Below the pieces are notes generated by a model that made no database searches, was not told where the DNA came from, and saw only the letters and a program-made list of their open reading frames with translations. Shown one piece after another: positions 7,301-36,230 of a stretch of DNA of 64,000 nt. The first letter of the stretch is position 1. Each line of letters opens with the position of its first letter. Source of the stretch: Arcuatula senhousia. Taxonomy: Eukaryota; Mollusca; Bivalvia; Mytilida; Mytilidae. The translations under genes were made by a program, and so were the position numbers. The stretch is from positions 52,524,203 through 52,588,202 of the forward strand of contig OZ020313.1 in assembly GCA_963971305.1 (NCBI GenBank). The letters run 5' to 3'.

Positions 7301-10300
7301 ATAATGCTTGGTTCGTTTTTGTGACCATTCCTGGGGACAATAGGCCCCACGGGATCCGTGGTGTTTGGTCTGTTTTTTTGTGTATACAGGATTTTCATAT
7401 AAATCATAAATGAACGGAGTTTTAATTTAATAACAGTGATCCAAAGGACACATGACCCAGAAAGGCCCCGTGGTGGTAGGTCATTTACAGGGTGCAAGAT
7501 TTCTATATTAACTCATGTTATTAACGAGGGTTCGAATTTTTCTTGACAGTGATCCATTGAATCCCGGACCTATTTAGAATGTTAGGCCTACCTCATATGG
7601 ACCCACATACACAATTTCGATAGACTTGAACCATCCCTGGGACCCATGGGCCCTGTGGTGCAAAGTCCGTTTCCATGGTGCAACATTTCTATATAAAGTC
7701 GAAATTGGACCCACATACACAATTTCGATAGACTTGAACCATCCCTGGGACCCATAGGCCCAGTGGTGCAAAGTCGGTTTCCATGGTGCAACATTACTAT
7801 ATAAAGTCATGCTAGAGGGTTCGATTTTTTTTTGACAGTGATCCATTGGATCCTGGACCTGTTTAGAATGTTAGGCCTAACTCATATGGACCCACATACA
7901 CAATTTCGATAGACTTGAACCATCCCTGGGACCCATAGGCCCAGTGGTGCAAAGTCGGTTTCCATGGTGCAACATTACTATATAAAGTCATGTTAGAGGG
8001 TTCCAATTTTTTTTTGACAGTGATCCATTTGATCCCGGACCTATTTAGAATGTTAGGCCTAACTCATATGGACCCACATACACAATTTCGATAGACTTGA
8101 ACCATCCCTCGGACCCATATGCCCCGTGGTGCAAAGTCCGTTTCCATGGTGCAACATTACTATATAAAGATGCTAGAGGGTTCGACTTTTTTTTTGACAG
8201 TGATCCATTGGATCCTGGACCTGTTTATAATGTTAGGCCTAACTCGTATGGACCCACATACACAATTTCAATAGACTTGAACCATCCCTGGGACCCATGG
8301 GCCCCGTGGTGCAAGGTCCGTTTCCATGGTGCAACATTTCTATATAAAGTCGTGCTATACATGAAATGCATGAGGGTTCGATTTTTTTTTGACAGTGATC
8401 CATTGGATCCTGAACCTATTTAGAATGTTAGGCCTAACTCATATGGACCCACATACACAATTTCGATAGACTTGAACAATCCCTCGGACCCATAGGCCCC
8501 GTGGTGCAAAGTCCGTTTCCATGGTGCAACATTACTATATAAAGTTATGTTAGAGGGTTCCATTTTTTTTTTTTTTGACAGTGATCCATTGGATCCCGGA
8601 CCTGTTTAGAATGTTAGGCCTAATTCATATGGACCCACATACACAATTTAGATAGACTTGAACCATCCCTGGGACCCATGGGCCCCGTGGTGCAAAGTCC
8701 GTTTCCATGGTGCAACATTACTATATAAAGTCATGCTAGAGGGTTCGATTTTTTTTTTTACAGTGATCCATTGGATCCTGGACCTATTTAGAATGTTAGG
8801 CCTAACTCATATGGACCCACATACACAATTTCGATAGACTTGAACCATCCCTGGAACCCAAAGGCCCAGTGGTTCAAAGTCGGTTTCCATGGTGCAACAT
8901 TTCTATATAAAGTCATGTTAACAATACATGAGGGTTCAAAATTATCTCTGACAGTAATCCATTTGGACCCCGAACCTATTTCAAATGCTAGGCCTAACTC
9001 ATATGGACCTACATGCACAATTTCGATAGACTTGAACTATCCCTGGGACCCATAGGCCCGGTTGGTGCAAAGTCCCTTTCCATGGTGGTACAAGATTTCT
9101 ATATAAAGTCATGTTATACATGAAATGCACGAGGGTTCGAAATTTGTTTTGACAGTGATCCATCCATTGGATCCCGGACCCATTTAGAATGCTAGGTCTA
9201 ACTCATATGGACCTACATACACAATTTTGATAGACTTGAACCATCCCTGGGACCCATGTTCCCCGTGGTGCAAGGTCCGTACCCATTGTGCAAGATTCCG
9301 CGTAGTACAGCCATGTTATGCGCGAGAATTTAAAATTTTCTTTAAAAGAAATACAATGGTCCCCGGACCTATTTAGTATTTTAAACCTTACTCATATGGA
9401 CCCACACACACAATTTCTATAGAATTGAACTATACATTGGGGTCAAAGGTTCCGTGGTGCAAGGTTCGTTTTCATGGTGCAACAATTCTATGTAAAGCCA
9501 TGTTTTACATAGAGGTTTGAAATTTTTTATGAAAGTGATTTAGTGGAAACCCGAACCTATTTAAAATTCCAAACCTAACACATATTTAGACCCACATACT
9601 TATTTTTTTTATAGAATTAAACTATCAATGGGACCATAGACCCCGTGGTGCAAGGTTCGTTATCATGGTGCAAGAATTCTATGTAAAGCCATGTTATGCA
9701 CGATCGAGGGTTCGATTTTTTTTAGAGTAATATAATAGACCCCGGACCTATTTAGAATTTTAAACCTTACTCATATAAACCCACATACTCAATTTCTGTA
9801 GAATTGAACTATCTACTGGGGCCCATAGGCCGCGTGGTGCAAGGTAGGTTTTCATGGTGCAAAATTTCTACCTAAAGCCATATAATACGTAGGGGTTTGA
9901 AATTTCTTTGAAAGTGATTCAGTGGACCCCGGACCTATTTAAAATTCTAAACCTAACTCATATGGACCCACATACCCAAGTTTTATAGAATTGTTCTATA
10001 ACCTGGAGTCCATAGGCCCCGTGGTGCAAGGTTCCTTTTCATGGTGCAAGAATGGTATGTAAAGCCATGTTATGCATAGAGGTTTGAAATTGTCTTTGAA
10101 AGTATTATAATGGACCCCGGACCTACTTAGAATTATAGACCTAACTCAAATGGACCCATTAACACAGTTTTGTTGGATTTGAAATAAGTCCCGTGGTGCT
10201 ATATCCTTTTTTGTCAAGGCAGTGGTGCTTGCAAGCTATAGTTTTAAGCTATATGGGAAGAGGAAAAAGGGGGGGGGGCTCTCAAGTTTTTTTTTCTTTT

Positions 10301-10740: not shown

Positions 10741-10748
10741 ATGCCTAA
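10741..10748 (+). CDS. SNRPC: U1-C coding exon 1 (8 nt)
   Basis: ATGCCTAA followed by the donor GTATGT. Joined to exon 2 it gives MPKYYCDYC, matching the invariant start of the family (M-P-K-aromatic-Y-C). I found no other ATGCCNAAGT between here and exon 2. The implied intron of about 7.1 kb is long but full of inserted elements. An 8-nt match could arise by chance, so RNA evidence would decide. Confidence 0.65.
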
Positions 10749-13700
10749 GTATGTTGAAAATAGCACAAAGATTTAAAATGCTTTAGCAAAGAACATTAAC
10801 ATTAATGTAATCATTAAGACTACATTCACATTTTGTATCAATATATTCGTTTCACTTGATTATTTTGTAATGTAATATTGTATTGTCAATTTAAGTTTAA
10901 CAGATAATTTTACATGCATGTTACTTATTATGCCTTAAGCTACCTAAACAGAATTTCTTTATTACTGATATGCTAAATAAGACTTACTTTTGACCCTTAA
11001 ATAAAGGAATACTCTGGAAGTTAGGATTTGGGTTTTATAGAATTGATTCCTAGTTACGATAACGTATCCCTCCCTATGATTCTCTCCGTGAGGGTTATGA
11101 TTCCCACCCATTACTTTCAACGAAGCACAGCAAAACCAGTTGGTAGTGCTTGAGTATGCATTTTTAAAGACGATATTTGATCCGACCCTCTATTAATTAC
11201 TTAATATATGTCATTTTGCATCATTAATATGAGAAAGACATTGCCTTAAAAGCTCGCGTAGATAATTCCATTGAAAATTTCGAATAATGCCTGGGACGAG
11301 ATAATTTGGGACGATGTGTTACTATTTCCCGCAATTTTTCAGCACGCGCAGACATTTTCGAAAACTTCCGAAAATCGAATGTCCGGACAACCGGAAACAG
11401 AATGATTTTTCTTCCATAGTATTTTGAGTCTCGTGCAATTTGGCATACTTTCTACATTAGAGAGCTCGCTACGCTCGCATATCAATCACCCTAAGGCATA
11501 ATGACTTTTTAATGCATACATGTGATTCTCCCGCTTGGAGATGAAATCTCACGACTTTTTTATCCATCTCCCTTTCTCCCGACTTTTTGTGTAATCTCCA
11601 GCTTTTTCGAGACATGACAAAATTTTAGTTTTAAAGACATCTTAATTGTTCAATCATAAAACATTTCTGGTGTTTTAGGGGTTTGTCGATTAGGCAGACG
11701 TTAATTTAACAGGTAAAGGTGTTAATTAAAGGTTTATTGCCATAATTAACCTGATGATTGTATAAACAGTTTGAGATTAATCAGTGAAGCCATGTATAAT
11801 TGGCACACGCTAGTGCCTCCATTTGACATTGAAATGCAATTTTAATGAGCAATGAAAATCTCCGGCTTTTTAGTCCAATCTCCCTCCAACAAAATCTAAA
11901 TCTCCAGCTTTGCCATCATGGATTTTCACATGTATGTTAATGTATAATTACTTAGTAATTAATGTTATTAAATTTCTGATCCTGAACTTCATAAAGTTTA
12001 AGGTCAGTGTAAATGTAACATGAGGCAGGTAAACCCTGTTATGCTCCTGAAGTTTTGGTTCAAAAATAAAAACAAACTAGCTTTTCTTGGGGGTTATGTG
12101 AGCGTTTAATGACGTCCAAAATTTTAAAAGATAAAAATATTTAAAAGACGCCAAAAGTTCGTGAAAACAAGCGCGTGCTAAACCGGACATTGAAGGAAAA
12201 TTCCACTCATAGTACAACTAAAAAGGAGCGTATAAATAATCATACCCTTATCTAAATTTTTAGGATATATCTGAAAATTTATCAATACATTGGATTGAAC
12301 TTATCCTCAAATACATAAGTTCGGTATAAAAATAAACCAACATATTAATTTAAGTTTGTATTAAAAGAAAATTGTTTTTCTCCTTTGAGGTTAATGGGCG
12401 GGAATTGTAACCCTCACTTAGAGAATCATAGGGAGGGTTCAGGGATTGGGAAGGAATCTTTAAGAAGGGGCCATTTCCCAGTTTTTTCATGAAATCTGAA
12501 AATCTGAAGGGGCCATTTCTTAACATTCGTTGTAAAATCTGGAAATAAGAAGGGGCCATTTCAGATCCTAATGGGCCAATGGCCCTAAAATCAAGACCTT
12601 TCTAATCCCTGAGGGTTACGTTATTGTAACTAGATTGAATCCATGAATGAATATGAAAATTTATACTTTTCAATTTTATCATTTTAATTCCGCTAATTTT
12701 AACATGTTTAAACCTTATATTCAATTGTGACATCACCATTTCTACTTTAAAGAGCTACAAACCAGGATAATGAGATACTAGTAAACGTGTAAAAGATTGT
12801 GTTACAAAAATTTCTAAAATTTTGAGGACTGAACAAATTTTTACAGGTAGCAAGTGACCTGTTGGTATTGTGCTAAGGCCTAAAATATATATATTGTTCT
12901 GTTTTCTGCTACGTGACCAACCCCTAAACATTTTATTGGCATTTTGGTACAAGAATTGTTAAAGTCTGGATGTTTCCCTATTCATGGGTTAATAGTTGAC
13001 AGAGCCATGGGTGTGCTAAAGCAAGCCGGAACTGCTTTCTCTCCCAGAGCACCTGAGTTCACTATCGTTACGAATTGAGTTTGTGTTGTGGATTGCTACT
13101 GTTGTATTTGTGTTTCTTTTGTTTTATGTAATCTGTTTTTTTTCTCCTGTTCTCGTTGGTGTTTACTGGTTTTGTTTCTGCCCTTTCAGACTAACGACAT
13201 TCAGATACCCCATTGGTACCTCTGCTTCTTTCTTTTGTACATTCACCATTTTCTCCGATGCAGTTACAAAGCTGGTTAAAATTTGTAATTGAATGAAATT
13301 ATCAAAATTTGATTCATGAATCTGTTAAAAATATTATTTTTTTTTTTTTGTACCCATAAAAATTGACCAATAAGTCTAACTTTTCAATAGTCTTCCATTT
13401 TTTCATGGAATAAACAAAAAACATCTGACTTTCATTGCTCCCAATTTTGTTGATGTCACTTTTCCTTCTTGTGACCTATGACATAAGTACATGTACATTC
13501 CAATATCTGGAATGGATCAAATGTCAACCTGTGTACAGCCTTTTTTGAAAAACTCATCCAGAATTCTGATTTTGATTCTTTTATTTTCATATTTGCAAGA
13601 GTAGTTTCCCTTTTTTGGTCGGCAACTTGATGTGAACAACTTGAGCTAAGGAAAACACAAAATGTTCCCTATCTGTTTTTAGCTCACCTGGACCAAAGGT

Positions 13701-16700
13701 CCATGTGAGCTATTGCCATCACTTGGCGTCAGTCAGTCGTCCGTCGTCGTTAACATTTTTCAAACGTTAACTCCTCTAACACCATAAGTCCAATGGCTTT
13801 TAAATTTGGCACAGTTGTTAATTAGCATAGGTAGTATAAAACTAGCGTGGGGATTTTTGATTCGTTGAAAAACATGGCCGCCATGGCTAAAAATAGAACA
13901 TAGGGGTCAAATTACAGTTTTTTGCAAATAACTCAAAACGGTAACAGATATCAAAATTCTGGCATAGGGTAAAAGTGATCAGCACCTCAAGATCTACCTG
14001 CCCTGAAATTTTCAAGAGGATCCAACAACCGATGTAGGAGTTATTGCCCTTTTTCTGAATTTTTTCAAAATTTTTCACTTATTTAGCCCTATATCTTGAA
14101 AACTATACAAGATATTTTAAAAATTCAAATTGCATATGATTAAGCACATCAAGATCTACATTTCATGTAATTAGGTCAAAGCTGTAGAACCATTTCTTTT
14201 AGGAGTTATGGCCCTTAAAGCGTCAAAATTTACCATTTTTCATTACTTTTACCCTGAATTTCAAAGATTAACTTGTCTGACACCATACATCCAACTTCAA
14301 CCAAACTTGGCACAGTTGTTTAATAGCATTAATGCTACAATTCTATTGTTCGGATTTTTGATTTGTCAAAAAATATGGTCTCCATGGCTTAAAATAGAAC
14401 ATAGGGGTCAAATTACAGCTTTTTGCAAATAACTCAAAAACGGTAACAGATATCAAAATTTTGATGGAGACAAAAGTAATTAGCATCTCAAGATCTACCT
14501 GCTCTGAAATTTTCAAGAAGATCAAACAAACGACATAGGAGTTATTGCCCTTTTTCTGGATTTTTTTCAAAATTTTTCACTTATTTAGCCTATATCTTGA
14601 AAACTATACAAGATATTTCAAAAATTCAAATTGCATATGATTAAGCACATCAAGATCTACAATTCATGTAATAAGGTCAAAGCTGTAGAACTATTTCTTT
14701 TAGGAGTTATGGCCCTTAAAGCGCCAATATTTACAATTGTTCATTACTTTTCCCCTGACTTGTCTGAAATGGTAAGACCAACTGCATCTTAACATGGCAC
14801 ACTGTTTGATAGCTTATATGCTACAACTCTATCGTTCAGATTTTTGATACGTAAAAAAACATGGCCACCATGGCTAAAAATAGAACATAGGGGCAAATTT
14901 CATTTTTTTGCTAATAACTCAAAACTGGTTTCAGATATCAAAATTGTGCAAGAATCAAAAGTCGCAGTGATCTACCTGTCCTGAAATTTTGGATAAGATC
15001 TGACTGCTGATGTGGGAGTTATTGTTCTTTTTCCTAATTTTTGCCAAATTTGCACTTGTTAAGCCCAATATTTTGAAAACTAACCAAGATATTTCAATAA
15101 GCACAATAATATCTACAAATATATGTATCTGTGTAGTTCAGGTGAGCGATTCAGGCTCTTGGGAGCCTCTTGTTTGTGTAATTTCCCTTCATTGATTCAA
15201 ATGAACTGGCTTGGAGTGAAGTCCTTTAAATAATTTCCGACTTACCTACCCTATTTTTGTATGCATGGTAGCAGGAAACAAACAAATATTTTGTTTAGGC
15301 ATAATTCCAGTGACTGCCTTTATATTGATAGTTACTCCCTCACTTTTCACAACATAAAACACATCTATGAAGCGCTGAATATGGCATAGTAAATAAATGT
15401 CATCCCACTGCTAGAACTGATGAAACCATCAAAAACCAATTATCTTTAAAATGTTACATCTGTACCCTCATTACATCAAAGATACTTTGAACTGATTCAA
15501 AACACCTTTGGCACTGAATTGTTTAATGATCTAACATGAATGTAATAGCCAGTAAAAGCCTTGTACCCAGGTGCTCCGAGAAAAGAAGCAAAGAATTTGT
15601 ACAATAAGCCCTGGAAAATGTACTAAGAATGATGATGGATCTTGAAATTAGTTTGAATTCCAGACCTGCATCCTAACAGGTTTTACTTTGCACATCTATC
15701 AACAATTTTTTGTAAGCACCAAAAATGGAAGGGGGTACAGATCTGAAGTTTTACCAAGTAAAATACATGTACATGTAAAATAAATATTATCATTTTAGGA
15801 TTTGAATGTAAATCCTTGGAATATTTTTTGGAACTTAAGTTTTATGCTGACAGGACCCTATATCTATACTGAAGAATCTGTGATCACCTGGATATGAAGT
15901 ATGCTTTATCATAATATTAAGGAAACCTAGAACAAGAATTGTTTGAAATAATTTGAAATAACATGAAAAAAAAAAACTATTTCTTCACCTTTATTCAAGG
16001 GTCATCTGACAACTTCAGTCCAATGGAGACTGTAAATATTTTTATGCTGTAGTTAAAAGGTTATTCAGATTTTCTTTTTCTCTTATATTTTTGGAAACAC
16101 TAGTCTGACCTCCTGGTCTATTTTTAGCAACAGCGACCATGTGTTTGACGAATCAAAATTTAAACACAACTTTTGTGCAGGATACCCTAAGGATCAATCA
16201 TACAAAGTTTCATTGAATTCTGTATAGTAATTTCAGAGGAGAAGATTTTTGAAAAATCGTTAATGATAATGGACAACAGACAACAAGGGACACCAAGTGA
16301 TGGCAATAGCTCATTTGTACCTTCAGCATCTAAAGCTCTACAAAAGTCTCAACTGGGTCTAAGTTGTCAGATGACTCCTTATAGGGATTATGGCCAAAAA
16401 GTCAAAAATGGTGTTTTTTCATGTTTTTTGCCTATAGAAAGAAAACTATTGCAGATAGAGAATGCTGTTGCTTGCTTAAACCTTGAGCTCATTGAGCTCT
16501 TCAAAAGTCTCTTTTGGGTCAAAGTTGTCAGATGACTTCTTATAGGGGGTTATGGCCAAAAGGTCAAAAATGGTGTTTTTTCATGTTTTTAGCCTTTAGA
16601 ATGAAAACTATTGCAGATAGAGAAATGCTGTTGCTTGCTTAAACCTTCAGCTCAGTGAGCTTTTCAAAAGTCTCCATTGGGTCCTAGTTGTCAGAAGACC

Positions 16701-19700
16701 CCTTATTGGGGTTATGGCCCTTTGAAGGTAAAAATTGCCATTTTTTCATTAAAAAACCCCCAAACTATTGCTTGCTAAAACATTCAGCTCATTGTACAAA
16801 AGTCTTCACTGGGTCAAAGTTGTCAGATGACCCCTTATAGAGCTTAAAGCCCTTTAAATGTCAAAAATATTTTTTTCATGTTTTTTTTCCCTATAGAATG
16901 AAAATTATTGCAGATAAAAAAAAAGCTGTTACTTGCTTAAACCTTCAGCTTAATGAGCTTTAAGAAAGTCTTCTTTGGGTCGAAGTTGTTAGATGACCCC
17001 TTATAGGGATTATGGCCCTTTAAAGGTCAAAAATAGTGTTTTTTCATGTTTTTGCATCATAGACTGAAAACTATTGCAAATAGAGAAAAGCTGTTGCTTA
17101 CTTAAACCTTCAGCTCATTAACCTCTACAAAGCGTCCTTGGGTTGAAGTTGTCAGATGACCCATTGTACAAGTAATAGCTAATAGAAATGACCCAAATAG
17201 CTAAGCTTAAAGACCGGGTGAGCGATTCAGGCTCACAGGAGCCTCTTACTTTTTATTGGTCTGATTTCAATTTTTTTAGCAGGTTGTGATTTCAATTTTT
17301 TTAGCAGGTTAAGTCTCGTCAATTGGTGGATACAAAATGGGGGATAAATTTTTGCAACTCCCCTATTTCTGTTTAAGGTTGGGGACCAAAATCAAAACTT
17401 TTTTTATTATTGACCTATTTAATTTTTTTGGGCTAATTATAATTCTTGTCAAATGGTAAATTTACAAAACATAATATTGTGACACCCTGCTTCCCCTTAT
17501 TGCAGTTAGGGGCCGAAAGGGTGGAAAATGAAAGGAAGCAGATATCCTTAGTTAGGGGTCAAAAGGGATAATATTATTGTTAAACTGGAATTTATTTTTG
17601 GTCTGCTCTTGAATAAAATAATTCCTTGTGAAATATAGGAGGAAGGTCCACCAAAGGCTGTGTGTGTCAAAAACTTTGTCAGTCCACCATTGGTTGCATG
17701 TGTCCAGAGCAATTGACTATCCTCATTGGGCCTAAAATGACAGGGTTTGACATTTGCAGTAGTATCACGCTGTGCTTGGTGAAGCTTTTTATTGACTTTT
17801 TCAAATCGAAATCTTTTAAAGGTCTTTGTCAGTACATGTACCTGTAGTGTTAGTCAGTAATAACTTGGATGAATATTTTTCTATTTCAGATATTACTGTG
17901 ACTATTGTGATACATACCTGACGCATGACTCGGTAAGTTTACGCATGACTCGGTAAGTTTATGCATGACTCGGTAAGTTTTATGTAGGTTTTGCTTGCTG
18001 ATAACCTAAATTGGAATAGATTGATAATTATTTACAATTTATATCGATGTAAAGAAGGTAATGAGATGTTGATTAAGTGTATGTGACACAACCTACATGT
18101 ACATATATAAATTGAAATTCAAAAAGGAACAATGAAAAAACTGCTTGCAGCATTCAAACCAAGTGGAATAAGGAGTCAAAAGACCCCAATAATTCTTTCG
18201 GGAGTTAAGATCATTGTTGGTTTTCCGAGAATATGTGTCAGTACTTTTGTAATCAAACATTGATAAAGTTGCATTGTCCTAGAGATTCACCATATTAACA
18301 CTGCTAGTGTAGACGATAAAGAGATGTGGAATAAGTGTATGCGACACAACCAACATAAAGAAAAGGCAATTTTAAAAATCACAATGGAAAACTACTTGTA
18401 ATGTTGTGTTACTTTGGAAACATTTTAATGTGACATTGAAAATGTGGTGGTCTTTGAACTGTTTTATTTCTGATGTCCATGTAAACAATAGAAAATAAAA
18501 AGATGTGGAATAAGCATACGCGACACAGCCTACAATCAAGCTGCAATTCAGAAAAACCACAATGCATGGCCAACCGCCAGCAGCCTTCAACGAGGCCAGT
18601 AGGCACTGCTCGCGGTTCTGCAATTGGCCCATGGTCTATATAAAATGCATATACATGTAGTTCAAATCCAGCCCTGAAATAGTCACAGATGGACCCCCTT
18701 CTCAAACGGGACAGAAAACATCAAAAAGACATGTACAAGCAAAAGCTTTATCAAAGATTCCTGGCTTAGGACAGGCACATGTAATATGTGGCAGGAATAA
18801 ACTAGTTATCTGATTTGAGGATAATTGAGATGAGGTCATGTGAAAGCATCTCACACTGGTCATCTCAGCTCGAAAAAACACCAATTTACGTAAGAATATG
18901 CCATATGTACTTACTTGTTTGTATATATGATGATTTTTGTTTTATTATGTTTTAGCCATCTGTAAGAAAGACACATTGTGCAGGAAGAAAACACAAAGAA
19001 AATGTGCGAATGTTTTACCAGAAATGGCTTGAGGAGCAAGTCCAGAAACTAGTAGATGACACAAGTAATTTGTTTTTTAAAAGATTTAAAATATTTTTTT
19101 TTCTAAAGCATGTTATCAATTAGTTTAAGATTGATTAATAAATTAATAAACTTATTTGTTATGGTCCGCCTTTGACAGACAAGTTTTTCTTTCTATTCAC
19201 TTGTTTGTCTATCTGCTTATTCCACCTCAGGTTTGTCTTTGCACTTAACCTTGAGTCAGATCTTCTTAAAATGTTATACACTTATATCATGTACAGTCAA
19301 ACCTGCCTAAGTGGTCACTTCTTAGGCTCTGTTAGGCAATCACCTGCTGAAGAGAGCCACATTTGTTTTTGTCTCCCTCTATAATTATTCAACATAAATA
19401 AACCTAGATAAAGCAGCCATCTGTCATAAATGGCCACATTTTCGTCTTCCCTAGATGACCTTTTTAAAACAGGTTTGACTGTAGATATCACAACAAGGAC
19501 AACACATGACAAGGTATGGGTTAAACAGAAACAATTGCTTGTTTTGAAATTCCCTTAAGCTGCAGCATTTTTTTCCAACTCTAAATTCATTTGTTTTATT
19601 TTTAGCAGCATTTACAGAGAAGGTGGCCTCCAAACTTTTATAAAATCTGTTGTTTTATTTTTAGCTGCAGCATTTAAATCTGGGAAGATTGCCTCCAACC

Positions 19701-21905
19701 CATTCCAGACAGGCACTCCAGGTCCTGGTGGAGTTATGATACCACCTCCCTCTAACATGCAAGGTAAGGTGGCTATATGCTTGAGAATGACTGGTGATCT
19801 AGCCAGCATGTAGACATTTTCTGTCTTTTTTGCAAGTGGAGCAAAGGCAAAACAAAAAGACAAAAAAAAACCAAAAATTTCTATTACAAGAAAAAAAAAT
19901 GTTGTTCACTTGGTAAAAAAAAACCTGATATTTTCTTTTAATCTACTAAATTTTTTGTGAATCCCTTTAAACTGATGTTATTCCATATTAATTTATGCTT
20001 TGAATATCTTTTTATTTTCTTGGTAAGCCTGTCACTTTTACAATTGTAATATAATTTTGATTTCCAGGGAAGCCAGGTGCTCCCGGACCTAACCCAGGTC
20101 CCATGCCACAGATGGGAGGTCCAATGCCAGGTGGACCCATGCCACTTATGGCCCCTCCACACGGTGGCCCTATGCCACCCATGATGCAAGGTATATATAT
20201 AAATTTTTCATTACCAATATAATTATTAAGTACAAAAATAAAAACAAGATGTATAAGTTTTTTTCATACAAACCCCAAAAATTTTAATTCCACAATAGAA
20301 AGCAATCAGCAACCTTAAATGTAACCTGACAAATTCTGCGAATCTGGAAAAATATAAAGGCTAACATTACATTTTGATATGTGGTAAAGAAAAAAAAAAA
20401 CAGGGGAGATAAATAGTTGTGACACTAAAAATTTCTAAGAATGTGATCATATAAAACAAAGAGTATTTATTATGATATACTTTTGCCAATTTGGAAAAAG
20501 CACAGAGGATATGGTTTCGTGGATTAGAATAACTGTAATATGGTTTTGAACAAAAACAGAATATCTTAATTGATTTTTATGCTCCATCTACCGAAGGTCC
20601 ATGTGTGCTATTGCCATCACTTGGCGTCCATGGTCGTTAACATTTTTCAAACGTTAACTCCTCAAACACCATAAGTCCAATAGCTTTTAAATTTGGCACA
20701 GTTGTTAATTAGCATAGGTAGTATAAAATTAGCGTGGGGATTTTTGATTTGTTGAAAAACATGGCCACCATGGCTTAAAATAGAACATAGGGGTCAAATT
20801 ACAGTTTTTTGCAAATAACTCAAAAACGGTAACAGATATCAAAATTCTGATGGGGCAAAAGTGATTAGCATCTCAAGATCTACCTGCTCTGAAATTTTCA
20901 AGAAGATCCAACAAACGACATAGGAGTTATTGCTCTTTTTCTGGATTTTTTCAAAAAATTTTCACTTATTTAGCCCTATATCTTGAAAACTATACAAGAT
21001 ATTTTAAAAATTCAAATTGCATATGATCAAGCACATCAAGATCTACATTTCATGTAAGTTAGGTCAAAGCTGTAGAACCATTTCTTTTAGGAGTTATGGC
21101 CCTTAAAGCGTCAATATTTACCATTGTTCATTACTTTTCCCCTGACTGTAAGACCAACTGCATCTTAACATGGCACACTGTTTGATAGCTTATATGCTAC
21201 AACTCTATTTTTTTGCTAATAACTCAAAACTGGTTTCAGATATCAAAATTGTGCAAGAATCAAAAGTGATCAGCATATTAAGATCTACCTGTCCTGAAAT
21301 TTCGGAAAAGATCTGACTGCTGATGTTGGAGTTATTGTTCTTTTTCCTAATTTTTGCCAAATTTGCTCTTATTAAACCCAATATCTTGAAAACTAATCAA
21401 GATATTTCATAAATTTAAATCGCATATGGTTAAGCACAATAATATCTACAAATATATATATCTGTGTAGTTCAGGTGAGCGATTCAGGCTCTTGGGAGCC
21501 TCTTGTTTACTGACATGTGCCACATCAACTAAATTGGTATGGGAGGTGCACCTAGTGATGCTTAGCACAATGCATGCTTCAGATGCTGGCAGTGACCTAT
21601 ATTTTCTGCATGAATGACCACTTATAGAAGAATGGTTATATTAAAGTCCATTCCTTCTGACTGACAAGTGCTTTAATAGCAACCATGTTGATGCTTTAGT
21701 GATTGTGGAAAAAAAATAAATGTTGCGAGATGGGGCATTATGTCTTTTGGACATATTCTTGTTTTTCATCTGATGACATCTTTACTTTGTAGCAATGAGA
21801 CCTATGGGTCCGTTAATGGGAGGCATGCCAATGGGAGGAGCACCAATGGGGATGAGAGGACCTTTACTAGCAGGACCAATGGGTCCGAGGCCCATACGAC
21901 CTTAA
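10741..21905 (+). CDS. SNRPC: U1 small nuclear ribonucleoprotein C (gene span, six coding exons)
   Basis: U1-C is a U1 snRNP subunit that stabilises pairing of U1 snRNA with the pre-mRNA 5' splice site in the nucleus. Coding exons: 10,741-10,748; 17,890-17,932; 18,956-19,064; 19,665-19,763; 20,068-20,190; 21,793-21,905. They join with consistent phases to 495 nt, 164 residues plus stop (human U1-C is 159). Residues 1-30 carry the matrin-type C2H2 zinc finger with Cys6, Cys9, His24 and His30 at exactly the family positions, and the motif THDSPSVRKTH that contacts the splice-site duplex. A helix follows ([17 protein letters not shown]), then a Pro/Gly/Met-rich tail typical of the family. All introns are GT-AG. 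The first exon is only 8 coding bases, so it is the least certain part; the rest is secure. Confidence 0.93.
11050..12633. mobile_element. TIR DNA transposon (non-autonomous) with 8-bp target duplication
   Basis: The left end CTAGTTACGATAACGTA and following block (CCCTCCCTATGATTCTCTCC, CCCACCC) are repeated in reverse complement on the right (GGGAGGG at about 12,432; GTTACGTTATTGTAACTAG ending 12,633). Flanks ATTGATTC (11,042-11,049) and ATTGAATC (12,634-12,641) look like an 8-bp target duplication with one mismatch. The right inverted repeat is split by a tandem array of about 170 bp. No transposase ORF is visible. Superfamily not assigned. It lies in U1-C intron 1. Confidence 0.75.
12458..12570. 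repeat. Short tandem repeat, about 44 bp unit
   Basis: Three copies of a unit beginning AAGGGGCCATTTC (12,464, 12,508, 12,552) inside the right inverted repeat of the transposon around it. A minus-strand ORF of 69 codons here is a by-product. Confidence 0.7.
12642..13680. other. Intron sequence with a GGAGCACCTGAGTTCAC repeat
   Basis: U1-C intron 1. At about 13,000-13,290 it contains a copy of a repeat also present at 31,770-32,010 and 39,805-40,060 (landmarks GGGTGTGCTAAAGCAAGC, GGAACTGCTT, AGCACCTGAGTTCACT, TACCCCATTGGTACCTCTGC). Overlapping short ORFs there are not genes. The remainder shows nothing recognisable. Confidence 0.7.
13681..15175 (+). mobile_element. DINE/HINE-like element A (U1-C intron 1)
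   Basis: The 5' end AGCTCACCTGGACCAAAGG folds with TCCATGTGAGCT; a CGTCCGTCGTCG block follows. The interior has about three diverged tandem units of roughly 500 bp (CAAATAACTCAAAA, GGTAACAGATATCAAAAT, GGAGTTATTGCCCTTTTTCT). The 3' end is CAGGTGAGCGATTCAGGCTC, a GAGCC hairpin and CTTGTTT. Hairpin at the 5' end, internal tandem repeats, 3' stem-loop and no coding capacity is the architecture described for DINE-1/HINE helentron derivatives. That assignment is inference. Confidence 0.75.
15176..15985. other. U1-C intron 1, nothing recognised
   Basis: AT-rich intronic DNA without ORF, tandem repeat or inverted repeat that I could support. Confidence 0.6.
15986..17250. mobile_element. Composite DINE/HINE-like element B, two halves head to head
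   Basis: 15,986-16,330 reads as the minus-strand 5' part of the family (GGGTCATCTGACAACTTCAG near 16,000, then ACACCAAGTGATGGCAATAG and AGCTCATTTGTACC near 16,290-16,325). From about 16,335 to 17,250 the + orientation takes over, with five or six tandem units of about 155-165 bp (GTTGTCAGATGACCCCTTAT, TTTTTTCATGTTTTT, GAAAACTATTGCAGATAGAG, GCTGTTGCTTGCTTAAAC), ending in the 3' hairpin GAGCGATTCAGGCTC/GAGCC. The ORF at 16,263-16,535 lies across these units and is not a gene. Confidence 0.75.
17263..17310 (+). repeat. Short tandem duplication in U1-C intron 1
   Basis: TGATTTCAATTTTTTTAGCA plus GGTT is present twice in a row (about 24-bp unit). Each copy carries a pyrimidine tract followed by TTTTAG, an acceptor-like pattern upstream of exon 2. 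Probably neutral. Confidence 0.7.
17890..17932 (+). CDS. SNRPC: U1-C coding exon 2 (zinc-finger cysteines)
   Basis: Acceptor CTATTTCAG, then 43 nt encoding [14 protein letters not shown] with zinc ligands Cys6 and Cys9, and donor TCG|GTAAGT. Only this first donor keeps the frame into exon 3. Two further copies of the donor follow at +20 and +40 (see the separate repeat entry). Confidence 0.95.
17921..17980 (+). repeat. Three tandem copies of the exon 2 5' splice site (20-bp unit)
   Basis: The unit ACGCATGACTCGGTAAGTTT occurs at 17,921-17,940 and 17,941-17,960, and with one change (second base C to T) at 17,961-17,980. Each copy contains the last 12 exon bases and a full GTAAGT donor (GT at 17,933, 17,953 and 17,973). 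The second donor adds 20 nt and leads to TAA nine bases into exon 3. The third adds 40 nt and meets TAA inside the added sequence. Either product would end within the zinc finger. Confidence 0.97.
18040..18800 (+). repeat. Dispersed repeat cluster with GATGTGGAATAAG core, three copies in U1-C intron 2
   Basis: Three diverged copies of a repeat with core GAGATGTGGAATAAGTGTAT then GCGACACAACC begin near 18,062, 18,320 and 18,500. The third is longest and continues through CAACGAGGCCAGTAGGC and CTGCAATTGGCCCATGGTCT. Related copies lie near 25,040, 42,785 and 49,555. The later part (AAGATTCCTGGCTTAGGACAGG, about 18,755) has a relative near 62,015. This is probably a fragmented retroelement or SINE-type family; I cannot name it. 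Confidence 0.7.
18956..19064 (+). CDS. SNRPC: U1-C coding exon 3 (zinc-finger histidines and helix)
   Basis: Acceptor TGTTTTAG, then 109 nt in phase 0 starting PSVRKTH and ending in the helix [13 protein letters not shown], donor ACAA|GTAATT. It holds zinc ligands His24 and His30. Most family-conserved residues are here and in exon 2. Confidence 0.96.
19550..19664 (+). repeat. Duplicated acceptor region upstream of U1-C exon 4
   Basis: The acceptor block TTGTTTTATTTTTAG plus the exon start (GCAGCATTT...GCCTCCAAAC) at 19,650-19,700 has a diverged upstream copy at 19,591-19,640. A third partial copy (AGCTGCAGCATTT) lies near 19,558. The upstream AG ends at 19,605; splicing there would keep frame for about a dozen codons, then reach TAA at about 19,640. 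The original exon at 19,665 is the conserved one. Confidence 0.85.
19665..19763 (+). CDS. SNRPC: U1-C coding exon 4
   Basis: 99 nt, acceptor TATTTTTAG, donor CAAG|GTAAGG. Encodes the linker after the helix (AAFKSGKIA) and the start of the Pro/Gly-rich tail ([14 protein letters not shown]). Phases agree with exons 3 and 5. Confidence 0.94.
20068..20190 (+). CDS. SNRPC: U1-C coding exon 5 (Pro/Gly/Met-rich)
   Basis: 123 nt, acceptor GATTTCCAG, donor CAAG|GTATAT. Encodes a low-complexity tail with repeated GGPMP-type motifs ([13 protein letters not shown]), as in other animal U1-C proteins. Its GC content is well above the surrounding introns. Confidence 0.94.
20581..21508 (+). mobile_element. 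DINE/HINE-like element C (U1-C intron 5)
   Basis: Near-copy of element A with one fewer internal unit: damaged 5' hairpin (CTACCGAAGGTCCATGTGTG), TTGGCACAGTTGTTAATTAG, TAACAGATATCAAAATTCTG, and an intact 3' end CAGGTGAGCGATTCAGGCTC with GAGCC stem and CTTGTTT. High similarity to element A suggests recent mobility or gene conversion between introns of the same gene. Confidence 0.75.
21793..21905 (+). CDS. SNRPC: U1-C coding exon 6 and stop
   Basis: 113 nt, acceptor ACTTTGTAG, ending in GPRPIRP and TAA at 21,903-21,905. Met/Gly/Pro-rich ([17 protein letters not shown]), consistent with the family's C-terminal tail. Confidence 0.94.
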
Positions 21906-26799: not shown

Positions 26800-29496
26800 A
26801 CAAAAACAGAAGGTCAAAGACCTCCTGAGCTGGGATTTGATGTTATAAGAAGGGACAGAAAGAGCGATCCCCATGGTGGAGTGCTTATCGCCGCTAAGTC
26901 AGAACTATCACTCAACCAGGTATATATCAGTAAAGACAATGAAATTATAACAGGGACTATCAAACTAGGAAAGAAATCAATTATGATCTCCAGCTACTAT
27001 AGACCACCAGGCCAAAACAACACAAAGATAATAGAGAATACAATCAAAGAAATTGAAACAATGAGAAATAAAAACAAAAACAACATTTTTCTACTCGGAG
27101 GAGATCTTAACTTGCCTGATATTGACTGGGTGGATAACAACATCACAAGTCATCAAGTACCCAAGGCCATCAGTAACTTGTTCCTGAAGATGACTGCAGA
27201 TTTATCACTCCAGCAAATCAACAATCAACCAACAAGAAAAGACAATGTGTTAGACCTCCTCTTTACAAGCCATCCAGGACATATTGACCGTTGCAAGACC
27301 CTACCACCAATCGGCAATAGTGACCATGATATCCTAATGATTGACATCACATCAGACGAACAGAAGCCGAAACCAAGCAGGCGGAAAATCTTTCTTTGGA
27401 AGAAAGCAGACCTAGTAAATATGGGCATTTACCTCGACTCTGAATTTGCAAACTTCAATGATACTAATCACACTGATATCAACAACTCCTGGACATCGAT
27501 CAAGCAACTAATACTCCACTGCATAGAAAATCATGTACCAACCAAGCGAAGCCTAGCACGCAACAGCCATCCATGGATGAACACTCAGCTACGTAGACTG
27601 AGTAGACAAAAGCAACGAGCACACTCCAAGGCTAAGCACACGAAATGTACCAAAGACTGGAAGAGATACAAAAAGCTCAAGGCTGACCTACAGAGAGAAT
27701 CCAGGAAGGCACATACAATTTTCATGCAGGACATCGTGAGTGAAGACCTCCATAAAAACCCTAAAAGATTCTGGTCTTACATTAAGAGCAGGAAACAGGA
27801 GTCAACAGGTATAACCACGCTGAAAGATAAGGACGGATATCTCCACAGCGACTCATCAGCGAAAGCAGACATTCTCAACAGACAATTTCACTCCGTATAC
27901 ACCAACGAAGACCTCACTGATATTCCAGATAAAGGTGATAGCGCCTACCCAACTATGAAACCAATCAAAGTCAACCAACAAGGGGTAGCCAAACTTCTGA
28001 AGGGACTAAGACCATATAAGGCTACTGGGCCTGATGAAATTCCAGCCTTCATCTTAAAGAACTTAGCTGACCATCTAGCACCATATCTCACCAGATTATA
28101 CCAGCTCTCACTCGACCAAGGAAAAGTACCAGATGACTGGAAGAAGGCCAACATCGTGCCAGTATTTAAGAAAGGACAACGACATGTAGCCTCCAACTAC
28201 AGACCTGTGTCCCTCACGTCGATTGCTTGCAAGCTCCTAGAACACATCGTACACAGCTCCATCATGGACCATTTTGACAGACACCACATACTGTGTGAAG
28301 AACAACATGGGTTTAGAACCAAGCGGTCCTGTGAATCTCAGCTCCTGATAACAGTAAACGACATCATCCAGAACATCGAAAACGGAGATCAGACAGACAT
28401 CATCCTGCTAGACTTTGCCAAGGCCTTTGATAAGGTGCCACATGCCAGGCTGCTTCTGAAGATGGAGTACTACGGAGTACGCCAGAACTCACTTGAATGG
28501 ATAAGACAGTTTCTGATGAACAGATCCCAGTCCGTGATACTGGAGAACCACCGGTCAGATCCACTCAATGTCCTCTCGGGAGTTCCACAGGGCACAGTGA
28601 TGGGGCCTTTACTCTTTCTAGCCTACATAAATGACCTACCTGAAGTTACATCCTCAGACGCACGACTATTTGCAGACGATTGTCTTCTCTTCCGACGCAT
28701 TAGTAACACCGAAGATGCCAACTCACTACAGAGAGACCTGACACAACTAGAAGAGTGGGAAAGAAAATGGCAGATGTGCTTTCACCCTGAAAAGTGTACT
28801 GTTATCCGGGTACCAGGCAGACGTCATTCCATACAGACAACTTACACCCTCCACGGACACTCACTGGAAGTGGTCGACAGTGGGAAGTACCTGGGACTAA
28901 CCATCACCAAGGATATGTCATGGTCAAAGCACATCAACCAGATAACCGGCAAGGCTTCAAGAACCCTTGGCTTCCTTAGAAGAAATCTTGGTCGATGCAA
29001 CACCACGACAAAAGCCACTGCCTATACAACCCTTGTAAGACCAGTACTGGAGTATGCTGCCTCAGTGTGGGACCCACACCATGCCACTTCCATCCGCGAC
29101 CTAGAGCAAGTCCAGAGGCGAGCAGCACGGTTCGCATACAACTGCTACCAAGACAACTCTCCAGGCTGTGTGACCAAGCTCCTTGACAATCTTCAATGGG
29201 AATCCCTCCAACACAGACGGTGGAAGCAGAGCCTCATCACCTGCTACAAGATACAACACCACCAGATTGCCATTGACCCAGGGAGATACTACACAACTGG
29301 AGACACCCGGACCAGAGGTAACCATAGGTTCAGACAGATCAGAGCCATGAAGGACCTGTACCACCATTCCTTCTTCCCGAGATCCATACGATGCTGGAAC
29401 CAACTACCAACATCTGTAGTTGATGCAGGCACCCTAGAAGAGTTTAGGGCCAGGTTGAGCACCATTCCCTGGAGCCCTACTCAGCACAAACCATAG
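26800..29496 (+). CDS. LINE ORF2: endonuclease-reverse transcriptase
   Basis: Open frame of about 899 codons with no internal stop. The frame opens after a TGA at 26,797 and has no proper start: an ATG-less start at GTG 26,881 is sometimes called, but the frame clearly extends upstream (GFDVIRRDR at about 26,833), so the N-terminus is missing. Endonuclease motifs GDLNLPDIDW (about 27,103) and SDHD (about 27,320). Reverse transcriptase motifs: NYRPVSLTS (about 28,195), HGFRTKRSC (about 28,307), LDFAKAFDKVPH (about 28,408), SGVPQGTVMGPLLF (about 28,578) and catalytic FADD (about 28,668). The C-terminal domain includes LEYAASVWDPH. No RNase H domain seen. The uninterrupted frame suggests a young insertion. 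Confidence 0.93.
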   Translation, partial: TKTEGQRPPELGFDVIRRDRKSDPHGGVLIAAKSELSLNQVYISKDNEIITGTIKLGKKSIMISSYYRPPGQNNTKIIENTIKEIETMRNKNKNNIFLLGGDLNLPDIDWVDNNITSHQVPKAISNLFLKMTADLSLQQINNQPTRKDNVLDLLFTSHPGHIDRCKTLPPIGNSDHDILMIDITSDEQKPKPSRRKIFLWKKADLVNMGIYLDSEFANFNDTNHTDINNSWTSIKQLILHCIENHVPTKRSLARNSHPWMNTQLRRLSRQKQRAHSKAKHTKCTKDWKRYKKLKADLQRESRKAHTIFMQDIVSEDLHKNPKRFWSYIKSRKQESTGITTLKDKDGYLHSDSSAKADILNRQFHSVYTNEDLTDIPDKGDSAYPTMKPIKVNQQGVAKLLKGLRPYKATGPDEIPAFILKNLADHLAPYLTRLYQLSLDQGKVPDDWKKANIVPVFKKGQRHVASNYRPVSLTSIACKLLEHIVHSSIMDHFDRHHILCEEQHGFRTKRSCESQLLITVNDIIQNIENGDQTDIILLDFAKAFDKVPHARLLLKMEYYGVRQNSLEWIRQFLMNRSQSVILENHRSDPLNVLSGVPQGTVMGPLLFLAYINDLPEVTSSDARLFADDCLLFRRISNTEDANSLQRDLTQLEEWERKWQMCFHPEKCTVIRVPGRRHSIQTTYTLHGHSLEVVDSGKYLGLTITKDMSWSKHINQITGKASRTLGFLRRNLGRCNTTTKATAYTTLVRPVLEYAASVWDPHHATSIRDLEQVQRRAARFAYNCYQDNSPGCVTKLLDNLQWESLQHRRWKQSLITCYKIQHHQIAIDPGRYYTTGDTRTRGNHRFRQIRAMKDLYHHSFFPRSIRCWNQLPTSVVDAGTLEEFRARLSTIPWSPTQHKP

Positions 29497-32937: not shown

Positions 32938-33545
32938 GTTTAAAGATTTTAAAAGAAATTAAAAAAAAGATTTAATTAGAAATCTCAAATAAATTTTAGT
33001 TAAGGAACTCGATCAATATATTTAAAGATTTTAAAAGAAATAAAAAAAAGATTTAAATTTCAAATAAATTTTTCAGGAATAAGTATATATAATTAAGGAA
33101 TTGATCTACTTACTGTATGTTACCAATTAAAAGACAAAAGAACCAACAGTGAATATTTTTGTAAGAACTTTAAAAAATATCTATGATGATAAAGTATTTA
33201 TTTGTTTATCCCTTTTACGCCTGAAGATTTTTAATGTTATTTTTAGCACGATTTTGTGTATGTATTTGAAAAGAAATCGATAAAATTGATTACTCCTACA
33301 CAATATGTTATGACGTCAAGACCAATATTGATTGGTATCGAGAACGGGATAATTCCTTGTCTTTGATCATCCCGGAATTGCAGGATTTCTGTGGCACCTG
33401 CTTGCTTTATACATATTGAGGCATCTTTAGACAAAAACATGACAAAAAGTAAGTATTAAAAGAAGACAAAACGAACATTACACGTGTACAGTTCTATATT
33501 TAGAAAAATTGCACTAGAAATATCACGTTTGTAAACTGGGGTGTT
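32938..33545. other. Tandemly repeated target site and spacer
   Basis: Two or three copies of a unit of about 70 bp (GGAACTCGATCAATATATTT, AAAGATTTTAAAAGAAAT) at 32,940-33,085, one of them split by the TTAA element. A 65-codon minus-strand ORF at 33,243-33,440 is AT-rich with no family features and is not called. Confidence 0.6.
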
Positions 33546-36230
33546 CTAAAAAAGGGGGAAGGTATTTGTTTAGGGCCTTTTGTTTACATAGGCTTGACCG
33601 TAATATTGATTTTTATGACCCAGGGACATACAGTATCGATGGTCGAGGAGGAGTTTTGATCCTCGTGAAAAATGATCTTAATCCTGTCGAATATCATGAA
33701 GCTGATGTGAGGGCCGAAATCATATGGTGCAAACTTAATCCTACCCCAGGCAAATATATAATCTTTGGCGCAGCTTACAGACCTGATAGAGGCAAGCATA
33801 CCAATGTACTTTCTATTTGTGAATCTATAAATAAAGAATGCACCAATGAGAATGTTATTTTAGTAGGCGATTTCAATTTTAGAGATATTAACTGGAGTTT
33901 ACACTCCTCCCCTCACGACCTAGACAATATCTTTATAAACGTTCTGGAGGAAAATTCGATGTATCAAATGGTGGAAGAACCGACTAGGGGCAACAACATC
34001 TTAGACTTATTACTTACTTCAAACCTAGATATAATCGACAATGTTAAAGTTGATGAAAATTTTAGTACTAGTGACCATAAGAGCATAGCTTTCACTATTT
34101 CCTTCCCGAAGATGAAAGTTAATTACAAACAACGCAAAATTTATCTATATAGTCGTGGTGATTATGATGGTTTAAATAGTGAAATAGGAAATATTAATTG
34201 GAATGCATTACTTGATGGAAAATCTGTTAAAGATCAATGGGACACTATCAAACGAGTATATGATTCATTAGTAGACAAATATGTTCCCCACAAAATCATT
34301 AAAGAAGGTGCAAAGCTTGATCCCCCTTGGATTCGTGCTAAGTCTGTTCGTCGTGCTAGATACAAAAGACAAAAGTCATTCCAAAAGTATAGCCAAAGAA
34401 AACTAAACTGTGACTTAATGGACTATGCTAATAGTAAGCTGAATTACCAAGATACCTTGAAAAGGGCAAAGTCTGATTATGAAGATAAACTAGTAGATTC
34501 TCTAAAAGATAATCCAAAGCGATTTTTTAACTATACAAGAAACTTTACAAAGACTTCTTCAACAGTCGAAATGCTTGAGGTCGACGGAAATACTTTAAAC
34601 CATGACCAGGATAAAGCTCAGGCTTTAAAAGACTTTTTTAGCTCTGTACTTATAGATGAGCCTCCATTACATCATACTATACCTATAAGCAATGATAGAA
34701 TTGACAATCATTTTACTTTTACACAATTTACTGTTGAACAAGTAAGGAAAAGGATTTCCAGCCTAACACTATTCAAGTCTAGTGGCCCAGATAATATACA
34801 TGTAAATGTCCTCAAGAAGACCCCGAACTTTGCGTTGCCTCTCTGTAAACTTTTTAACAGCTCAATTCAAACTGGAACTATCCCCTTGGATTGGAAGTTA
34901 GGAAATATCATACCAATATTTAAAGCAGGATCTAGGCGCCAATGTAAGAATTATAGACCAGTCACACTAACTAGCCAAGTAGCCAAACTTCTTGAGCGAT
35001 TACTTCAGGACCAACTGTTACATTTTGTTAAAGAGATTAATATCATTTCATGCGACCAACATGGTTTTCAGCAACAATGTTCTTGTATAAGTCAACTCTT
35101 GGAAAGTCTCAACGATTGGACTTTCTCATTCGATAAAAATATACCAGAAGACATTATTTACCTTGACTTTGCCAAAGCATTTGACACCGTACCACACCAA
35201 CGCCTTCTTTTTAAATTAGAACACTATGGCATTAGAGGATATATCTTAGATTGGCTTAGAAATTTTCTTACCGGCAGAAAGCAACGTGTTTTACTTAGAA
35301 ATGGATGTTCCGATTGGAAGGAAGTAACCAGCGGAGTACCGCAAGGATCCATATTAGGTCCACTTCTCTTTATTTTATATGTAAATGACCTTCCTTCTTT
35401 TGCAAAACTAACTGCCAAATTTTTCGCAGATGATACAAAACTGTATGGACCTGCAGCTTCCATAGATGATTGTCAGGAAATTCAGCAAGATTTAAACAAC
35501 TTTTCCGCCTGGTCAAAACTATGGCTGTTAAATTTCAATGCTCAGAAATGTGTGGTGCTAAGAATACGTGAGTCTGTTCGTTTTTTCTACTCGTTAAATG
35601 GAGTGTATCTATCAAGCGTCACTACCCAAAAGGACCTTGGAGTATATATTAACTCTAGCCTCAAACCGTCAGAACATATCCATAAAATTTCCATGAAAGC
35701 AAACCAGAAAATTGGACTTATTAAACGATGCTTTACATCTCTAACTCAAAAGAAAATAACAACACTGTATACTTCTATTATCAGACCGGGTCTCGAATAC
35801 GCCTCCCCAGTGTGGAGCCCGTGGTTAAAAACTGACATAAACAAACTGGAATCGATTCAGAAAAGATGCTTGGATTAGTCAAAGACTGATATACAACTGC
35901 CTTCTCTTAAATCTAGAAGAGACTTCTTCGATATGGTCGAAACTTACAAATATCTGCATGGTCTGGTCAAAACACCATCTCACTTTCAGTTTAGTCATCC
36001 AATACGTGAGCTAAGAGGTCATTCATTAAAACTCAGCAAGGAACACAGCAGAACAGATATCAGAAAGTTTTACTTTTGTAACCGTGTGGTGGACCAATGG
36101 AAAAGCCTCAGTGAAGCGACAGTCCAAGCAACTAGCCTATCCTCTTTCAAGAGAACCCTGAAGATGAGAGGGGATCGACACTAGATCCTTTTTACCCACC
36201 AAGTATCAAGTATAAGTATCAAGTACATTA
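33546..36230 (+). mobile_element. Second LINE, CR1/Jockey group, 5' truncated
   Basis: A different family from the one at 26.8 kb: AT-rich codon use, FADDT instead of FADDC at the catalytic site, and a 3' end made of AAGTATCAAGTATAAGTATC-type short repeats (about 36,200-36,225) instead of GAA repeats. It also starts inside the endonuclease. Confidence 0.85.
33566..36184 (+). pseudogene. LINE ORF2 with one premature stop
   Basis: Endonuclease motifs VGDFNFRDINW (about 33,860) and SDHKS (about 34,071). Reverse transcriptase motifs NYRPVTLTSQ (about 34,949), HGFQQQCSC (about 35,060), LDFAKAFDTVPH (about 35,162), SGVPQGSILGPLLF (about 35,331) and catalytic FADDTKLYG (about 35,426). The frame is open to an in-frame TAG at 35,876-35,878, then continues in the same frame through SLKSRRDFFDMVETY to a final stop at 36,182-36,184. 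The post-stop part is the conserved C-terminal domain, so the TAG is a disabling substitution and not the natural end. The start at 33,566 is TTG, so the N-terminus is missing. Confidence 0.9.

Follow-up and report, generated by a model that had tools for sequence, protein, structure and literature searches.

Does a gene whose product helps U1 to bind 5′ splice sites steer its own expression through three copies of one such site, or has a short repeat simply spread across the end of an exon? The question is raised by a 64,000-nucleotide stretch of the Arcuatula senhousia genome (C11:52524203-52588202, hereafter the window), which we analyzed together with the 1.04-Gb assembly (1803 contigs) that contains it. 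In this window, the donor of exon 2 of the gene for the U1 snRNP protein U1-C occurs three times in a row. A sequence-only reading of the locus had suggested that the choice among these donors could respond to the level of U1-C or U1 and act back on U1-C through nonsense-mediated decay (NMD), and had offered a recent neutral slippage duplication and an assembly artefact as alternatives. Here, we sought to establish what the repeat is, what each donor would encode, and which of these explanations fits the locus and the published data on U1-C best; regulation by donor choice is unproven.

A single U1-C gene in the assembly

The gene model comprises six exons on the + strand and five GT-AG introns, with an open frame encoding 164 amino acids. 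Its identity as U1-C, which had been proposed from the sequence, is borne out both by an N-terminal U1-type C2H2 zinc finger (PF06220, zf-U1; E 4.9e-22, 77.9 bits against a cut-off of 22) and by the best match of the product among solved proteins, which is human U1-C (E 2.2e-38). Exon 2 (17890-17932, 43 nt) ends at donor 1, TCG/GTAAGTTT, where the slash marks the exon end, and is followed by exon 3 with the remainder of the zinc finger (18956-19064, also covered by the zf-U1 match), exon 4 with the acceptor that suits the reading frame (19665-19763), exon 5 (20068-20190), and exon 6 with the stop codon (21793-21905). Each of these exons was recovered when the U1-C protein was searched against the assembly, which gave five matches, corresponding to exons 2 to 6 and all at one locus (8 of 8 candidates scored). 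The same assembly-wide protein search, again with all eight candidates scored, found no U1-C paralog, and no retrocopy in which the joining of exons 2 and 3 would be preserved. Exon 1 is too short for detection in such a search and is the least certain element of the model: its probable coding part, ATGCCTAA (10741-10748, 8 coding bases), lies 7.1 kb upstream and was placed by the sole match to ATGCCNAAGT in the window, where 0.66 matches are expected by chance.

Three contiguous copies of one donor

The triplicated repeat in the U1-C gene is real, and the three donors stand at 20-bp spacing, as had been described. A 20-bp unit, ACGCATGACTCG/GTAAGTTT, runs head-to-tail and without gaps from 17921 to 17980 on the + strand, in copies 1 (17921-17940), 2 (17941-17960), and 3 (17961-17980), whose donors 1, 2, and 3 place the exon end at 17932, 17952, and 17972, respectively. 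There is no difference between copies 1 and 2; copy 3 departs from them by a single C-to-T substitution at 17962, in a CpG (identities of 100/100/95% for the three). Tandem Repeats Finder reports the same interval with a period of 20 and 3.0 copies. With up to three mismatches allowed, the 19-mer CGCATGACTCGGTAAGTTT is matched three times in the window, against 0.03 expected from shuffles, and CGGTAAGT occurs three times in the window, each time inside the triplicated unit, a count that 3 of 100 shuffles likewise reached.

Having the same sequence, donors 1, 2, and 3 share a predicted U1 5′-end duplex energy of −9.3 kcal/mol each, compared with −5.0, −3.0, −10.0, and −5.9 for the donors of exons 1, 3, 4, and 5. 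By a hydrogen-bond count of U1 pairing, they score 20 against 15-18 for the rest (seven donor sites scored) and outscore 99.1% of the 3224 GT sites on the + strand. Exon 2 accordingly carries more than one donor sequence within a short distance, which is the sequence arrangement (two or more close together at one exon) of tandem alternative 5′ splice sites.

Two features that might have set the later copies apart were examined and set aside. RNA structure masking donors 2 or 3 received no encouragement from folding (z +1.05; 169 of 200 shuffles were equally or more stable), and the accessibility rank of the donors shifts with the stretch that is folded (three stretches). The substitution in copy 3 creates TGCATG, the RBFOX motif, 5 nt short of the end of the extension that donor 3 would add to the exon, where copies 1 and 2 have GCATG; but TGCATG has 26 occurrences on the + strand of the window and the change is a C-to-T at a CpG, and chance would be a sufficient explanation for the motif.

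What each donor would encode

Translation of the gene model supports the claim that donor 1 alone among the three retains the frame, its junction joining ...THDS to PSVRKTHC. Donor 3 meets a TAA within its own extension (17954-17956), also in agreement with the sequence-only reading, and donor 2 leads to a TAA in exon 3, which had been placed nine bases into that exon and is observed close by, at bases 8-10 (18963-18965). The resulting open reading frames, 26 codons from donor 2 and 24 from donor 3, give products unable to form the zinc finger, and their removal by NMD is probable, though not certain. Decay of these mRNAs is plausible because at least three exon junctions lie downstream of both stops. 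Nevertheless, NMD is sometimes inefficient for stops near the start codon, and these stops lie only 24-26 codons from it, so the step from stop to decay, on which the suggested feedback depends, is insecure.

Age of the repeat and the background of tandem arrays

Copies 2 and 3 together differ from copy 1 at one of 40 bases (95% CI 0.06-13%), a divergence that fits a recent duplication. The donor core (−3 to +6) is conserved at 18 of 18 bases and the unit outside it at 21 of 22. These figures do not point to selection on the core alone, although they are too small for such selection to be excluded.

How surprising a repeated splice site would be depends on how common short tandem arrays are. 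With satellites set aside, the remaining 58.9 kb of the window contain 11 such arrays, the triplicated donor included, amounting to 0.76% of bases, and a genome sample of 20 chosen 10-kb stretches (200 kb) contains 55 arrays amounting to 2.04% of bases, many of them contributed by a few dense arrays (L027, L037). Arrays with 15-30-bp units at no less than 95% identity number 15 in the same 200 kb, or 0.42% of bases. At about 0.4% per base, such an array would be expected to overlie a donor in roughly 2% of five-intron genes, and in several of the full set of spliceosome genes, an estimate that uses general gene and intron numbers and ignores selection. Given this array density, it is unsurprising by itself that the gene for a splice-site reader should have one of its splice sites repeated. 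The GTRAG donor core was found in none of the 55 sampled arrays, against 2.2 expected, and repeats that carry donor-like sequence may be scarcer than the overall array density suggests.

A doubled donor elsewhere in the genome was also sought, as two occurrences of CTCGGTAAGTTT separated by 0-20 nt, and this gave six hits, of which two fall at U1-C exon 2 and the other four overlap in one stretch of contig C3 that reads as a minisatellite. This minisatellite (L002, about 1460-1850) has units of ~26 bp with CTCGGTAAGTTT on one strand.

A probable slippage duplication with a proposed dominant first donor

The reading that we favor, with a probability of roughly 0.6, is a recent slippage duplication in which donor 1 would dominate, with low and unregulated use of donors 2 and 3, and the consequences would be near-neutral or slightly harmful. 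On this view, a slippage-type event would have copied in tandem a 20-bp unit spanning the end of exon 2 in the single U1-C gene, leaving three identical 5′ splice sites at 20-nt intervals, any of which would be open to U1, with neighbors mostly excluding one another. At normal U1-C, the upstream donor 1 would then yield most of the mRNA, with low leaky use of the other two, and the triplication may well be polymorphic. This is in essence the neutral alternative of the sequence-only reading, and it fits the sequence best, with two copies identical and the third off by 1 of 20 bases. Also in its favor are the commonness of short tandem arrays in this genome and the presence of an older duplication across another splice site of the gene, the exon-4 acceptor.

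Published data on clustered donors bear on the predicted dominance of donor 1 from both sides. Intron 7 of U1-70K contains three clustered regulatory 5′ splice sites, and according to PMC3798272, splicing of the endogenous gene favors the upstream site A, with no significant use of site C despite its greater strength, the rare use in this cluster being ascribed by the authors to close proximity. The dominance of site A in so close a cluster supports donor 1 as the main donor here. In the U1-70K minigene of the same source, however, site C had a positive effect but A and B a negative one, so that precedence of the upstream site is not a general rule. The favored reading is further weakened by the reported preference for the downstream one of two donors bound simultaneously (PMC3798272), and also by the shortfall of GTRAG among the sampled arrays. 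Moreover, three equal donors of which two are unproductive would imply a fitness cost unless donor 1 is strongly dominant. Even if neutral, the locus would offer a natural experiment on a long-standing question, namely which donor is chosen when three identical ones follow each other every 20 nt.

Precedents for tandem sites in splicing-factor genes

The sequence-only reading knew of no tandem-donor version of cross-control among U1 snRNP proteins. For tandem 5′ splice sites as such, however, the U11 snRNP-binding splicing enhancer (USSE; PMC8329584, PMC5473595) and U1-70K are precedents, although each acts on a 3′ splice site lying upstream and not on a choice among coding donors. The USSE consists of tandem U12-type 5′ splice sites in SNRNP48 (U11-48K) and RNPC3, and the SNRNP48 product takes part in reading U12-type 5′ splice sites (PMC8329584, PMC5473595); the notion of a reader gene with its own site in tandem is, on these accounts, already in print. 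Like the USSE, the U1-C array places a tandem 5′ splice site in the gene of its own reader and would, through donors 2 and 3, give unproductive mRNA, and the repeated site is indeed one read by the product of the gene, U1-type instead of U12-type. The USSE sites, in contrast, are non-coding and conserved and, instead of serving as donors, promote the use of a 3′ splice site upstream, whereas the U1-C sites are identical and copy 1 is the frame-keeping coding donor, which puts the array outside the USSE class as defined.

U1-70K (SNRNP70) exon 7a is similar in having three clustered U1-type 5′ splice sites in the gene of a U1 snRNP protein, with a premature stop and NMD as the outcome (PMC3798272). 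It differs in that its sites are of unequal strength and belong to an unproductive exon, where the U1C-dependent switch occurs at the 3′ splice site, compared with identical sites at a coding exon in the present case, and in that the regulated gene is U1-70K, not U1-C. As described in these sources, the USSE and U1-70K clusters act mainly as enhancers and not as competing donors. Competing donors proper are found among tandem alternative splice sites (TASS), which are likewise closely spaced and, where frame-disrupting, NMD-sensitive (PMC8055015, PMC2423196); in human coding regions, for example, NMD inactivation raises frame-disrupting minor tandem sites (PMC8055015). The commonest catalogued TASS, however, lie a few nucleotides apart, in contrast to three identical donors that a tandem DNA repeat sets at 20-nt intervals. 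Among the titles listed in open-access literature searches on U1-C autoregulation and tandem donors, none describes tandem donors in U1-C; the names SNRPC, U1C, and SNRNP70 do not occur in the main text of PMC6547761; and in PMC8724738, the passages that deal with duplicated splice sites hold nothing applicable to 20-nt spacing.

Alternative explanations

Rarely spliced extra donors might instead serve to boost U1 binding near the 43-nt exon and to strengthen its upstream acceptor in a USSE-like manner, and as exon 2 is productive, an increase in U1 would then increase U1-C, a positive coupling. Such help would suit an exon as short as this, the skipping of which shifts the frame, and the triplicated donors head the hydrogen-bond ranking. 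The tandem 5′ splice sites in SNRNP48/RNPC3 and U1-70K activate an upstream 3′ splice site, and U1C knock-down mostly increases exon skipping (169 predicted targets, compared with 37 in the opposite direction; PMC3798272). Yet donor 1 is strong already, being slightly surpassed in duplex energy by the exon 4 donor alone, and the published elements, as their sources describe them, are conserved and yield unproductive isoforms, unlike the productive exon 2 here. We regard this reading as unlikely, and as the one that survives best among the alternatives.

A somewhat smaller chance is given to an assembly or haplotype effect, in which the three copies of the assembly would be a minor allele or an error. 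A search with the 321-base exon-2 region gave one full-length match among the 40 scored of 677 candidates, without a second haplotype or paralog beside it; the 39 remaining scored matches fell solely on an interspersed repeat further down the intron. Against an artefact, 60 bp would be short relative to usual read lengths, and copy 3 has a base change of its own.

The other alternatives involve regulation, and here the published direction of U1C effects is informative. Following U1C knock-down in HeLa cells, the downstream site gained in 111 predicted alternative-5′ss targets and the upstream site in 12, with RT-PCR confirming 11 of the 14 tested, and a U1 AMO caused no significant ratio change in the six targets shown, two of which are 5′ splice-site choices (PMC3798272). 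By this direction, low U1-C would raise the use of donors 2 and 3 and so lower U1-C further, which is positive feedback and not homeostasis, while the downstream preference of co-bound donors would imply the opposite sign of feedback for the number of U1 particles. The homeostatic feedback that had been suggested thus runs counter to the knock-down data, and by analogy with these human (HeLa) results, a self-balancing loop in its simple form is unlikely.

Both signs would coexist in a U1 counterpart of the USSE, namely a lineage-acquired target array through which the level of U1-C or U1 would set the productive fraction of U1-C mRNA, self-reinforcing on U1-C and possibly balancing on U1 particles. 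We consider this improbable. If the array is regulated, it would be an independently arisen major-spliceosome parallel to the minor-spliceosome USSE, and one by which the loss of a splicing factor would be amplified, not buffered. More improbable again is a self-reinforcing switch, in which low U1-C would shift splicing to donors 2 and 3, lower U1-C further, and make expression all-or-none or dosage-sensitive; the HeLa direction (PMC3798272) and the frame outcomes both point this way, but such behavior would presumably be harmful for a core factor.

Least probable of all is the homeostatic loop itself, with donor choice sensing U1-C or U1 and NMD of donor-2 and donor-3 mRNAs holding U1-C constant, for which the coding-frame outcomes are as claimed and a toy occupancy model lets donors 1 and 3 (40 nt apart) be bound together when neighbors exclude each other within about 25 nt, so that more U1 would give more donor 3 if the downstream bound site wins, but whose sensitivity in that model vanishes at 45-nt exclusion and flips in sign if the upstream bound site wins, and against which stand the HeLa direction, by which low U1-C should raise the unproductive donors, the unresponsive AMO targets, and possibly weak NMD at stops so near the start.

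Other duplications and repeats around the gene

The exon-2 donor is not the only splice site of U1-C with a duplication. A second version of the acceptor and beginning of exon 4 lies upstream (19582-19633, + strand) and aligns with 19641-19698 at 45 of 52 identical bases. The alignment scores 62, where the highest of 500 shuffles scored 34, and five places in the window score as high, this one included. This duplication is older than the donor triplication, and use of its AG (exon from 19606) would lead to a TAA after 12 extra codons. A clustering of duplications on U1-C splice sites was considered and rejected, as two arrays on splice sites gave P 0.013 out of the four arrays first chosen but 0.14 out of all eight in the gene span, the four added ones being those near 12520 and at 16334-16719, 16799-17162, and 19843-19870.

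Within intron 1, a 25-bp direct duplication (17258-17313) repeats an acceptor-like T-tract with AG. Intron 2 contains an interspersed repeat (18017-18119), matched by at least 39 other places in the genome, as well as three related 46-nt stretches at 18053, 18311, and 18490. Upstream of U1-C, two satellite-like arrays (1-2348 and 7598-10158) consist of units of about 182-196 bp, with consensus units apparently in opposite orientation. Finally, two long open reading frames at 26800-29496 (898 aa) and 33518-35878 (786 aa) encode endonuclease and reverse transcriptase domains, a content like that of non-LTR retrotransposons.
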